This document shows, one piece after another, positions 2,437 to 5,796 of a stretch of DNA of 37,280 bases. The DNA comes from Anaerolineales bacterium (GTDB taxonomy: Bacteria; Chloroflexota; Anaerolineae; Anaerolineales; Villigracilaceae): assembly GCA_013140605.1 (NCBI GenBank), contig JABFSL010000132.1, positions 1 through 37,280 on the forward strand, read 5' to 3'. Every line of letters begins with the position of its first letter. Positions within the stretch are counted from its first letter, which is position 1. A program made the position numbers and the translations under genes. Below the pieces are notes generated by a model, which was not told where the DNA came from, made no database searches, and saw only the letters and a list, made by a program, of their open reading frames with translations.

Positions 2437-2973
2437 ATGTCTATTAAACCCTGGAAAATTCTGGAATCAAATTATATCCGCCCGAGAATTCGCGTTGACC
2501 GGTGCGAACTGCCAAACGGAAAATTGTTCGAGCCAATGGTGATGGAATTCCGCACCTGGGCGGTTGTCCTTGCTCTGACCAAGGATCAGGAAGTTGTTTT
2601 GATCAGGCAATATCGTCACGGCGCACAAGATGTCTTCTGGGAATTCCCTGGCGGTGTGGTGGAAGATGGTGAAGATCCGTTGGAAGGAGTGCGGCGCGAA
2701 CTGTCTGAAGAAACGGGTTACACAACTTCCAATTTGATCAAGGTTGGAGAGTTTTATCCAAACCCTGCCAATCAAAGCAATATTATGTACGCGTTTTTGG
2801 CTTACGATGTCGAAAAAACAGACATCCAAAAATTCGATGAAGCCGAGGATATTGAAGTGCATCTTATCCCATTGGATGAATTGATTGCCATGACCAAGCG
2901 CGGAGAATTCCTGCACGGCTTGCAGGTTGCCGCGTTATTTCACGCTCTTGCCCATATGAACCGCATCCATTAA
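2437..2973 (+). CDS. Nudix hydrolase, ADP-ribose pyrophosphatase-like
   Basis: This 178-residue protein has a complete Nudix box: G, five residues, E, seven residues, RE, L, S, EE, T, GY (GGVVEDGE then RRELSEETGY, about residues 69-92). The box glutamates bind Mg2+ and catalyse cleavage of a nucleoside diphosphate linked to another moiety. VLIRQYRHGAQDVFWEFPGG just before the box, and the PNPANQSNIMYAFLA stretch after it, are typical of ADP-ribose or ADP-sugar pyrophosphatases. The exact substrate cannot be fixed from sequence. GGAGAGG about 11 bp before the ATG can serve as ribosome binding site. The next methyltransferase gene starts 5 bp after the stop, so the two are probably cotranscribed. 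Confidence 0.85.
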   Translation: MSIKPWKILESNYIRPRIRVDRCELPNGKLFEPMVMEFRTWAVVLALTKDQEVVLIRQYRHGAQDVFWEFPGGVVEDGEDPLEGVRRELSEETGYTTSNLIKVGEFYPNPANQSNIMYAFLAYDVEKTDIQKFDEAEDIEVHLIPLDELIAMTKRGEFLHGLQVAALFHALAHMNRIH

Positions 2974-2978
2974 AAATT

Positions 2979-3782
2979 ATGAATATAGATTTCGGTCTGA
3001 CAGCAAATGACTATGCCCAATATCGCGCGGGATTCCCAGATGCGTTCTTTGAACGGGTATTCGGGGAGGGAATCGTCGAGGCAGGCGATTCTCTCGTGGA
3101 CCTTGGCACGGGCACTGGCACATTGGCGCGCGGATTCGCTTCACGTGGATGTAAGGCGCTCGGCATGGATATTTCCGAGGCGATGCTTGAGCAGGCGCGT
3201 GAACTCAGCAGACAAGACGGGTTGAAGGTTGAATTCCGCGCCGCTCCAGCCGAAGAAACAGGCCTGCCCGATTCAATATTTGATGTTGTTTCGGCGGGAC
3301 AATGCTGGCACTGGTTTGACCGCCCACGCGCGGCGGCTGAGGTGATGAGAATTCTGAAACCCAATGGGCGAGTTTTGATTCCACATTTTGACTGGATTCC
3401 TCTCACTGGAAATGTGGCAGATATGACTGAAAAGCTGATTCAAAAATACAATCCCAAATGGTATGAAAGGTTTGGGAACAAAACAGGAATGCACCCAGAC
3501 TGGCTGCGTGATCTCAGCGAGGCGGGCTTTGCCGATATTAAAACTTTTTCCTTTGACGTGGACGTCCCCTACACAGCGGAAGCGTGGAGAAAACGCATCA
3601 GCGCAAGCGCGGGGGTGGGAGCAAGTCTGTCAGATGCGGAGGTGGATGGATTCGACTCGGAGTTAAAGTCACTGCTTGAAGCGCATGAACAGGCAGCGGC
3701 TGGGAAAGAGGCGGATTCACATCCCGTATTAAATATCCAACATCGGGTCTTTGTTGTCCACGCGCGCAAATCTGATTTTTAA
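2979..3782 (+). CDS. SAM-dependent methyltransferase (type 11, UbiE/SmtA-like)
   Basis: The protein has 267 residues. Motif I is VDLGTGTGTLARGF (about residues 41-54), followed by the acidic strand end MDISEAML and the post-motif VVSAGQCWHWFDRPRAAAEVMRILKPNGR. QCWHWFD is typical of the methyltransferase-11 subgroup related to trans-aconitate and small-molecule methyltransferases. The substrate is unknown. It begins 5 bp after the Nudix stop and is probably translated from the same message. It is not a close copy of the methyltransferase at 1505-2359, as the two share only general class I motifs. Confidence 0.8.
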   Translation: MNIDFGLTANDYAQYRAGFPDAFFERVFGEGIVEAGDSLVDLGTGTGTLARGFASRGCKALGMDISEAMLEQARELSRQDGLKVEFRAAPAEETGLPDSIFDVVSAGQCWHWFDRPRAAAEVMRILKPNGRVLIPHFDWIPLTGNVADMTEKLIQKYNPKWYERFGNKTGMHPDWLRDLSEAGFADIKTFSFDVDVPYTAEAWRKRISASAGVGASLSDAEVDGFDSELKSLLEAHEQAAAGKEADSHPVLNIQHRVFVVHARKSDF

Positions 3783-3788
3783 ATACGG

Positions 3789-3817
3789 TTGTGCAATTCA
3801 TTCAATGGGCGTAAAAT
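3789..3817 (+). promoter_or_regulatory. Predicted sigma70-type promoter of corA
   Basis: TTGTGC (3789-3794), a 17-bp spacer and TAAAAT (3812-3817) give a good promoter just after the methyltransferase stop. Transcription would start near 3824, giving corA an unusually long leader of about 165 nt. Confidence 0.5.
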
Positions 3818-3843
3818 ACTTAAGCCATATCGGCAAGGAAACC

Positions 3844-3942
3844 ATGTATACAACGGACGAGAGCGACCTTAGTTCTTCTGATAATAACCCGCCCAGTACG
3901 AGTGGGCGGCACATGTTTAATTTAATTTCAAACGTCACGTAA
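3844..3942 (+). CDS. Candidate 32-residue leader peptide upstream of corA
   Basis: An ATG 4 bp after AAGGAA (3835-3840) opens a 32-codon frame ending in TAA. The peptide is rich in acidic and Ser/Thr residues near the start (TTDESD) and has a Pro-Pro pair at codons 16-17, whose CCG CCC codons form the 5' arm of a 7-bp hairpin. The stop codon abuts one arm of a switching stem placed before the corA Shine-Dalgarno, so ribosome position could decide which stem forms. Enterobacterial corA and mgtA leaders carry the short regulatory peptides CorL and MgtL. The sequence here is unrelated, and the analogy is in layout only. It could also be a chance frame. Confidence 0.4.
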   Translation: MYTTDESDLSSSDNNPPSTSGRHMFNLISNVT

Positions 3943-3977
3943 GCGCGCCTGCGCCCCTGCGTGATGTCAATTCACGC
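3889..3977 (+). promoter_or_regulatory. Structured corA 5' leader with mutually exclusive stems
   Basis: Three stems are visible. The first is CCGCCCA (3889-3895) with TGGGCGG (3903-3909). The second is ACGTCACG (3932-3939) with CGTGATGT (3960-3967), 8 bp with one G-U. The third is GCGTGA (3959-3964) with TCACGC (3972-3977), a 6-bp perfect stem that touches the AAGGAGG Shine-Dalgarno at 3978. The second and third stems share bases 3960-3964 and cannot coexist. I could not match the region to the M-box (ykoK) consensus. Regulation by Mg2+, translation or a ligand is inference. Confidence 0.45.
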
Positions 3978-3989
3978 AAGGAGGCAGAC

Positions 3990-4919
3990 ATGCTAAGCAT
4001 TTACAAAACCACAGAGCAGGGGCTCGAAAAAATCGAACTGATCGCGAACGGCGCATGGGTCAATGTGGTGGACCCGACGCCTGAAGAGATGGAAAAACTG
4101 GTGAACTGGGGGATGGATATGGACTATATTAATTATTCCCTCGACCAGGATGAAATGGCACGCATGGAACGCGATGATGATTACACCTTCATCCTGCTTC
4201 GCATCCCCATGTATCAACCTGACAGCGATGTTCCCTATAATACCGTTCCGCTTGGCATCATGATCCTGGGGAATAAGATCATTACCGTTTGCCGTTATGA
4301 TAGCGATGTTTTCAAAGTACTGGCAAATGGAAAATACCGCTTGTTGAAAACCGGCAAGCGCTACCGCCTTGCTCTTTACATCTTCCTTGAAACTTCGGCA
4401 CGTTATTTGAATTTATTGCGTGAGATCAACCGTGCAACTGAAATCGTGGAAGATAAATTGCAAAAGTCCACGCACAACCGCGAAGTGCTGGAACTGCTCA
4501 AATATCAAAAATGCCTGACCTATTTTTCCACCGCGCTTACCTCCAATGAAGTGATGATGGAACGCGTCCAAAGAACACAGCTCTTCAATTATTACGAAGA
4601 AGATCAGGACCTGCTTGAAGATGTGCTCACCGAAAATCAGCAGGCCATCCAAATGACCAGCATCGCCACCGAAATTCTTTCAGGCATGATGGATGCCTTC
4701 GCGTCCATCATCTCCAACAATCTTAATGGCGTAATGAAGGCGCTGGCCGCGCTCACGATTGTCGTCAGTTTGCCAGGCACGGTCGCGGGGTTCTTCGGAA
4801 TGAACGTAATGTTACCTTTAACAGACAAAAATCCATACGCGTTCCTGGTTGTATTTGGAATTGCCCTGTCATCAACTATCATCGCTGCGTTTATCTTCTA
4901 CAAACGGGACTGGCTTTAA
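3990..4919 (+). CDS. corA: CorA-family Mg2+/divalent cation channel
   Basis: This 309-residue inner-membrane protein has the normal length for the family. A long acidic and helical cytoplasmic domain comes first (TPEEME, DQDEMARMERDDDYTFILLRIP), then a helical region with the QAIQMTSIATEILSGMMDAFAS segment. Two C-terminal membrane helices follow, the first ending in the diagnostic GMN motif (FFGMNVMLP, about residues 268-276). The protein closes with a basic FYKRDWL tail. CorA pentamers conduct Mg2+, and Co2+ or Ni2+ in some members, into the cell. The start is supported by AAGGAGG 5 bp upstream. The gene has its own predicted promoter and a long structured leader. An SMP-30 gene follows 1 bp after the stop and is probably translationally coupled. 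Confidence 0.93.
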   Translation: MLSIYKTTEQGLEKIELIANGAWVNVVDPTPEEMEKLVNWGMDMDYINYSLDQDEMARMERDDDYTFILLRIPMYQPDSDVPYNTVPLGIMILGNKIITVCRYDSDVFKVLANGKYRLLKTGKRYRLALYIFLETSARYLNLLREINRATEIVEDKLQKSTHNREVLELLKYQKCLTYFSTALTSNEVMMERVQRTQLFNYYEEDQDLLEDVLTENQQAIQMTSIATEILSGMMDAFASIISNNLNGVMKALAALTIVVSLPGTVAGFFGMNVMLPLTDKNPYAFLVVFGIALSSTIIAAFIFYKRDWL

Positions 4920-4920
4920 A

Positions 4921-5796
4921 GTGCAGGCTGAATTAATTCTCGATGCAAAAGCCATATTGGGTGAAGGCCCCGCATGGGATTCAAAAACACAAACGCTTTA
5001 CTGGCTGGATATTCTTGAAAAAAGGATTTATGCCGGTACTCGAATCCTTGCTCAACTGGATGATCTTGTCTGTTGCATTGCCCCGCGCAAAAATGGGAAT
5101 CTACTCGTGGGCACGCGCCTCAGCTTCGCGGACCTGAATCCCTTCGATCAAACTCAGGGCAGGCCTGATTCCGTCCAATTGACAGTTCTCGCCTCTTTGG
5201 ATTCTGAACTCCCCACCAACCGCCTCAACGACGGAAAATGTGATCCCGCTGGCCGTTTCCTGGCCGGCACAATGGACATCAACGAGAAGGACCCGAACGG
5301 CGCATTGTATTCATTTGATGGGAAAAACATCACACACTTGCTTGATGGTATCACCATCTCCAACGGCCTCGCGTGGAGCGTTGACCATAAAACTTTTTAC
5401 TACATTGACACACCCACGCGGGAAATCAAGGCATTTGATTATGACTTATCTTCGGGTCAAATCGCGAATCCGCGTGTTGCTATCCATATCCCCGAATCCC
5501 TTGGCTGGCCCGACGGCATGACCTCTGACACGGACGGCAATTTATGGATCGCGATCTGGGGCGGCGCTCAAGTGACAAAATGGAATCCCAATACTGGCGA
5601 ATTGCTGGAGCAGATTCCCGTACCCGCCTTGCATACATCATCCTGCGTGTTTGGCGGCAAAGACATGAACGAGCTATATATCACTTCTGCGCGAAAAAAT
5701 ATGAGCGAAGCGGACTTAAAAAAATATCCGCTCTCCGGCGGGTTGTTCAAGGTTGAGACAAATACAGCGGGTATGCCAACATTTGAGTTTGAATAG
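4921..5796 (+). CDS. SMP-30/gluconolactonase/LRE family protein (regucalcin-like)
   Basis: The protein has about 291 residues from a GTG one base after the corA stop. The first family residues (VQAELILDAKAILGEGPAWD) begin exactly there, so an upstream TTG start inside corA is unlikely. Hallmarks of the six-bladed beta-propeller metallo-lactonases are GEGPAW with its metal-binding Glu, NRLNDGKCDPAGRFLAGTMD, ISNGLAWS and WPDGMTSDTDGNLWIAIWGG. The family hydrolyses sugar lactones such as gluconolactone using Ca2+ or Zn2+; the substrate here is not known. No Shine-Dalgarno is visible, which suits coupling to corA. A loop (NPFDQTQGRPDS) is encoded by an interspersed repeat. Confidence 0.87.
   Translation: MQAELILDAKAILGEGPAWDSKTQTLYWLDILEKRIYAGTRILAQLDDLVCCIAPRKNGNLLVGTRLSFADLNPFDQTQGRPDSVQLTVLASLDSELPTNRLNDGKCDPAGRFLAGTMDINEKDPNGALYSFDGKNITHLLDGITISNGLAWSVDHKTFYYIDTPTREIKAFDYDLSSGQIANPRVAIHIPESLGWPDGMTSDTDGNLWIAIWGGAQVTKWNPNTGELLEQIPVPALHTSSCVFGGKDMNELYITSARKNMSEADLKKYPLSGGLFKVETNTAGMPTFEFE
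5140..5165. repeat. CCTTCGA...CTCAGGGCAGGC repeat inside the SMP-30 gene
   Basis: The 26-bp word CCCTTCGATCAAACTCAGGG plus CAGGCC closely resembles an intergenic repeat I know from memory in many bacterial genomes (CCTTCGACAAGCTCAGGGCAGGC). Here it is read in frame as a loop of the SMP-30 propeller. No second copy is in the window, so the call rests on recall. Confidence 0.5.

Follow-up and report, generated by a model that had tools for sequence, protein, structure and literature searches.

An acidic leader peptide gene and a putative RNA switch upstream of corA in Anaerolineales suggest that the ribosome senses low Mg2+

Upstream of corA in an Anaerolineales bacterium, a conserved gene for an acidic peptide is combined with an RNA switch, which suggests that the ribosome senses low Mg2+ in place of the usual Mg2+ riboswitch. 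The best explanation of this arrangement is a ribosome-based attenuator that acts on corA translation, to which we assign a probability of roughly 0.6, with Mg2+ as the presumed signal. Comparison with related genomes shows, at the level of sequence, that the acidic Ser/Asp/Pro-Pro N-terminal block of the peptide and the two mutually exclusive stems of the RNA are conserved, and both peptide and RNA are almost certainly functional.

The window, by which we mean the whole 37,280-nucleotide stretch of DNA that was analyzed, contains the following features.

3789..3817, + strand: promoter-like pair, TTGTGC (3789-3794) and TAAAAT (3812-3817) separated by 17 nt, read from the sequence
3824..3989, + strand: putative corA leader RNA, its extent taken from the promoter position
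3835..3839, + strand: Shine-Dalgarno sequence AAGGA of the leader frame, from the sequence
3844..3942, + strand: leader peptide frame, ATG 3844-3846, 32 codons and TAA 3940-3942, MYTTDESDLSSSDNNPPSTSGRHMFNLISNVT, from pN/pS and presence in relatives
3856..3894, + strand: block of acidic residues and Pro-Pro, DESDLSSSDNNPP, where ribosomes are proposed to abort or pause, from D/E and Pro column conservation
3889..3909, + strand: hairpin A, 7 bp, holding the Pro-Pro codons (3889-3894), arms 3889-3895/3903-3909, read and found by mechanical stem search
3932..3967, + strand: stem B, anti-sequestering, 3932-3939/3960-3967, with two further inward pairs to 3941/3958, abutting the stop codon, from pair counts in a 57-row alignment
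3954..3984, + strand: stem C, sequestering the Shine-Dalgarno sequence, 3959-3964/3972-3977, extendable to 3958/3978, plus 3954-3957 with 3981-3984, from pair counts
3978..3984, + strand: Shine-Dalgarno sequence AAGGAGG of corA, from the sequence
3990..4919, + strand: corA, Mg2+ transporter with GMN motif, 309 aa, PF01544 at E 1.4e-53

The frame, the Pro-Pro hairpin, the stop-codon stem, the competing stem and the corA Shine-Dalgarno sequence all lie where the preliminary description had placed them. Positions 3958-3964 of the window are common to stems B and C, and stem C ends beside the AAGGAGG of corA. The promoter-like pair places the transcript start at about 3824; such a pair, with a spacing of 17 nt every time, occurs in 40/91 leaders, the available upstream sequence often being too short to show one. 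Compared with shuffled sequences, 3824-4010 folds better (z -2.63), and 3/200 shuffles were equally good. The solved CorA chains 4cy4 and 4ev6 match the CorA of the window at E below 1e-30. The genome holds one more CorA, a distant one (L104), and no such frame is present in the approximately 100 nt before its likely start. No MgtE match was found in this genome, and the M-box covariance model (RF00380) has no match in the window or in its genome. Furthermore, the Rfam library, which presumably includes the enterobacterial mgtL, corL and mgtQ leaders, gave no hit at E<=1 when its 4227 families were scanned over 3780-4020, and thus no leader RNA homologous to these three by that search.

The proposed mechanism runs as follows. 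Translation of the leader frame would start at its own ribosome binding site. With ample Mg2+, ribosomes would read as far as the stop codon, placed on stem B's 5' arm, and block this stem; its 3' arm would then pair beside AAGGAGG as stem C, and corA translation would be low. At low Mg2+, ribosomes would drop off or stall approximately 40-75 nt before stem B, owing to the acidic residues early in the peptide and the Pro-Pro pause that follows them. With the ribosome aborted, stem B would form once transcribed and exclude stem C, and corA would be translated. In this scheme, the acidic start would be the sensor and Pro-Pro an aid, and the C-terminal half of the peptide would matter through the RNA only.

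Within family f1 (Anaerolineales, Chloroflexota), this corA was found at E<=1e-40 in 97/152 genomes (98 loci), and the upstream regions were readable at 97 loci, the G014 locus being without its 5' end. The leader frame is present at 94 of these 97, the three exceptions being G012, G016 and G019, and the consensus of its N-terminal half is about MYxTDESDLGSSDNNPPS. In the 42 of 91 leaders of the same type as the window's, pN/pS for the block through PPS is 0.27 in the frame versus 1.2-1.5 in the two other frames, and 0.98 for the remaining, C-terminal part of the peptide. In a non-redundant subset (n=16), the values are 0.37 for the block (bootstrap 0.26-0.52) and about 1.1-1.5 for the other frames. 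Judged from these ratios, the N-terminal half is under purifying selection in the leader frame only, and the frame, whose conservation in related genomes had been put forward as a check, is indeed kept as a protein. Because frame selection favored acidic residues and Pro-Pro, counts of these are biased upward, and with this bias the four acidic columns hold D or E in 40, 41, 39, and 41 of 42 sequences and both prolines are present in 40/42. The acidic columns swap mainly between Asp and Glu, so that charge persists even where the residue changes. The acidic content is modest, with a mean of 3.7 D/E in codons 2-16, in contrast to the long stretches with which ribosome destabilization was demonstrated. 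Moreover, a profile built from 41 peptides was matched 50 times at E<=0.05 across 100 family genomes, training rows included; 44 lie just upstream of corA, and the other six lie elsewhere and are weak (E 0.005-0.045). Because of this conservation, with the matches tied to corA, a chance origin of the leader is excluded.

The stems were assessed by pair counts in 57 aligned leaders (55 distinct), taken from 70 with the stop 39-59 nt before corA, 13 divergent ones being omitted. Stem B is paired in 94.5% of cells with both-sided changes at 6/10 pairs, and 0/500 shuffles were as good on four of five measures and 6/500 on the fifth. Stem C is paired in 89.9% of cells with both-sided changes at 3/11 pairs, a value that 6/500 shuffles reach; its covariation score in the same alignment is not above shuffles, 94/500 of which reach it. 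RNAalifold predicted stem C from this alignment but missed stem B, for which the direct pair counts are the basis. Leader L076 (genus g28) has the unrelated CCTCCTGC/GCAGGAGG in place of stem C; this pairing still covers the Shine-Dalgarno sequence, and stem B matches. When 21 leaders were folded, a hairpin of the stem B type appeared in most with the 3' part omitted, and a fold of the stem C type appeared in 12 with it included. Across 91 family and four order-level loci, the 75 nt before corA gave a mean z of -2.85 against shuffles, with 68/95 below -2; for loci without the leader, the same test gave -0.89, with 2/6 below -2. Hairpin A was set aside as a conserved RNA element: the Pro-Pro codons do lie in a 7-bp hairpin in the window, as had been described, and in relatives such a hairpin is only weakly above chance (8/82 leaders at p<0.05).

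The placement of the stop codon was compared in the same way. Counted from the first base of stem B, the stop falls at -8 to +12 nt in 70/91 leaders, with frames of 10-40 codons, and a ribosome at the stop would therefore cover the 5' arm; this is a raw count, not set against shuffles, and among close relatives the conserved stem sequence itself includes the stop. The abutment of stop and stem first described for the window is thus kept across these 70 leaders. In the window, Pro-Pro and stem B are 38 nt apart, too far for a ribosome at Pro-Pro to touch the stem. The 21 leaders off this layout are 19 run-on frames together with L024 and L050, in which the stop is 45-47 nt away and yet the fold settled on a longer hairpin. 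In equilibrium folding, the predicted openness of the window's Shine-Dalgarno sequence falls from 0.47 in the free leader to 0.38 once a ribosome occupies the stop; among other leaders, it changes little in most, is lower in a few (L054, 0.38 to 0.02) and is higher in many run-on frames. Closure of the Shine-Dalgarno sequence by a ribosome at the stop is thus not reproduced at equilibrium, so the model needs co-transcriptional folding, and the switch, if it exists, would be kinetic. On average over 95 loci, openness is below that of shuffles (0.29 vs 0.41), individually significant in 15/95, and for the window itself the predicted value equals that of shuffles (0.45 vs 0.45). Collectively, the two-state stem proposed at the outset stands in part: stem B covaries, but stem C covaries weakly and equilibrium folding does not yield the switch.

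To consider Mg2+ as the signal, we turn to the distribution of the M-box, which occurs in 31/150 family genomes, one of them with a fragment below the cut-off. It is present in 4/93 genomes with the corA leader versus 27/59 others (p 7.6e-10, with species not being independent), and the exchange between leader and M-box is visible within genera g1, g25, g28, g41, and g43. Twenty-two M-box loci were read, and the first long frame was obtained at 21; judged by their starts and ends, 12 of these genes resemble MgtE_N/CBS proteins, five full MgtE, one a P-type ATPase and one CorA, the two others (L106, L120) being something else. Pfam, applied to four of the 21, agreed with the assignment. In G024, G112, and G119, which carry both leader and M-box, the M-box precedes another gene, and in G137 an M-box (C20:85568-85733), the leader frame and the orthologous corA stand in tandem (L117 / L089, C20:85568-85953). 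Among the genomes without the leader, G012 has an M-box before mgtE, and G019 has corA directly behind mgtE. This near-complementary distribution supports Mg2+ as the signal, and Mg2+ probably acts through ribosome destabilization. The suggestion of a ribosome-based Mg2+ sensor similar to those of Salmonella thus gains from the conserved peptide, stem B and the M-box exchange, and loses from the weak covariation of stem C, the 19/91 run-on frames and equilibrium folding. The three family loci lacking the leader and the four genomes that have both leader and M-box also count against the model.

Alternatively, a stall at Pro-Pro might report not Mg2+ but the activity of EF-P or a general stress on translation, with stem B forming thereafter. 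Pro-Pro lies within the first 24 codons of 78/91 leaders; moreover, among families outside f1, where 50 of the 64 corA loci found were read, the sister family f14 has a frame ending exactly Pro-Pro-stop at 10/16 loci (three with GTG starts), which speaks for such a stall sensor. But Pro-Pro is absent from 13/91 leaders in which the acidic residues stay, the profile matches lie at corA in 44/50 cases, and the M-box exchange is left unexplained, which makes this reading unlikely. The frames of L023, L025, L029, and L056 have 10-11 codons (MDDSSLRFLN, MEDSTLLSSIF), an acidic start and no Pro-Pro, and they stop 6-8 nt before stem B. The Pro-Pro-stop frames, of the type MDEDHLSQDEDPLSSSKKPP followed by a stop, were seen at L097, L128, L131-L135, L139, L141, and L152 (f14) and at L095, the one locus of family f7 that was read (1/1). 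These frames are perhaps a stalled-termination version of the leader, and their pN/pS of 0.72 (11 sequences, f14 and f7) is suggestive. At the other 33 loci outside f1, no leader frame was accepted; in f9, an acidic frame MEVDSSLDIDPLSSKR... is a possible candidate.

The frame might also merely couple or buffer corA translation as a constitutive gate and sense nothing. In 19/91 leaders (L049, L051, L057, L066-L068, L073, L074, L077, L078, L080-L085, L088, L092, and L094), the frame passes stem B to a stop 12-32 nt short of corA, an arrangement like that of reinitiation coupling; a ribosome finishing there would block stem C, so the simple form of the attenuator model fails for these leaders. 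A gate of this kind, however, gives no reason for an acidic start that is kept while the C-terminal half is near neutral, and none for the M-box exchange, and we regard it as quite improbable. The output of the same sensing might instead be Rho-dependent transcription termination, the route of enterobacterial mgtL and corL; this is very unlikely, as stem C sits on the corA Shine-Dalgarno sequence, and the + strand around the leader (2500-5500) has no intrinsic-terminator-like site. That the RNA itself binds Mg2+ as a riboswitch, the frame being incidental, would suit a structured leader before a Mg2+ transporter gene but is barely credible given the absence of an Rfam match even at E 1 in this leader and a conservation in the first half of the frame that is that of codons. 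Serine/aspartate attenuation, for which the Ser/Asp-rich block might speak, was set aside because corA is not an amino-acid gene.

Other leaders were observed before mgtE. MgtE is over the cut-off in 22 family genomes, and in ten of them mgtE is preceded by an acidic frame of another kind (MNDESVPSPSG and variants); none of these ten has an M-box, which likewise supports Mg2+ as the signal. The acidic mgtE leaders (MNDESVPSPSGREKRP and variants) are those of L268, L269, L270, L271, and L251-L256, with stable predicted stems before mgtE; the pN/pS of their frames, 0.73 (10 sequences), is suggestive. A common structured leader, TCTCCGAAATGCG ... CGCCACCTTCGGAGAATATCCAAGGTGG followed by a T run, was seen at L257, L258, and L259 (mgtE), L260 (mgtE-corA), and L008 (corA), the last being the corA of G016, a genome without the leader peptide. 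In it, TCTCCG could pair with CGGAGA inside a terminator-like hairpin. These structured leaders have no Rfam match and are a candidate metal-responsive RNA.

To our knowledge, acidic leader peptides through which the ribosome senses Mg2+ have been described in enterobacteria only. We tentatively propose, at slightly less than even odds, that in Anaerolineales acidic leaders of the corA and mgtE types make the translating ribosome a general, interchangeable Mg2+ sensor that has been repeatedly exchanged with the M-box within genera, independently of enterobacterial mgtL, mgtQ, and corL. If true, a leader peptide in Chloroflexota that follows this logic and has repeatedly changed places with a Mg2+ riboswitch would mark a convergent and general mechanism. 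In addition, the approximately 90 natural variants could then be used in a reporter assay to ask which features of the nascent chain make ribosomes fall apart at low Mg2+.

Acidic-leader Mg2+ attenuators are characterized by a short acidic/Pro frame before a Mg2+ transporter gene and a peptide sequence under selection, and both were found here. They also have two exclusive RNA states set by the extent of frame translation, for which the present stems are candidates, and a Mg2+-dependent drop-off that depends on bL31. The literature on leader peptides, corA leaders and acidic or aborting uORFs, in its openly accessible part, yielded no such Chloroflexota system. The earlier view of an unrelated sequence with similar logic fits the descriptions of mgtQ, corL, and MgtL, the peptides being set against these by description only. 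The M-box, like the present leader, sits before Mg2+ transporter genes, including the orthologous corA in G137, but senses by RNA. In M. tuberculosis, an M-box riboswitch is described as controlling a conserved uORF (PMC12810186); G137 likewise combines an M-box with a small upstream frame, and the difference is that in M. tuberculosis the riboswitch governs the frame. The corA RNA motif known earlier is described as limited to Gammaproteobacteria and metagenomic DNA (PMC6429828).

In mgtL, which precedes mgtA in E. coli and Salmonella, the acidic/Pro start EPDP is reported to cause ribosome drop-off at low Mg2+ (PMC11282234). The acidic/Pro start of the peptide is shared with our leader; unlike the control proposed here, the output of mgtL as described is Rho. 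The mgtL peptide is shorter than the Anaerolineales corA leader peptide. Acidic residues are described as acting early in the nascent chain (PMC9718836), and in the Anaerolineales leader they likewise stand early. For corL, before corA in E. coli and Salmonella, the source describes action through Rho and fewer Pro and acidic residues than in mgtL (PMC11552253). Both are short frames before corA, and corL is described as having an inverse relation to corA expression, two RNA states and a response to intracellular Mg2+; its Rho output differs from that proposed here. The 8-aa mgtQ frame of Salmonella, before mgtB, has the acidic residues Asp2 and Glu5 (PMC8092293). It differs, as far as described, in phylum, in transporter (MgtB, CorA here), in its intergenic position (an own leader here) and in length, the Anaerolineales frames usually having 25-35 codons and a Pro-Pro; both peptide and RNA were set against mgtQ by description only. 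By analogy with these descriptions, we infer that the present leader may work like mgtQ: both have early acidic residues in a short frame and mutually exclusive stems, and in both, efficient translation of the frame would hide the transporter ribosome binding site and abortion would free it, placing the control, here as a proposal, at translation.
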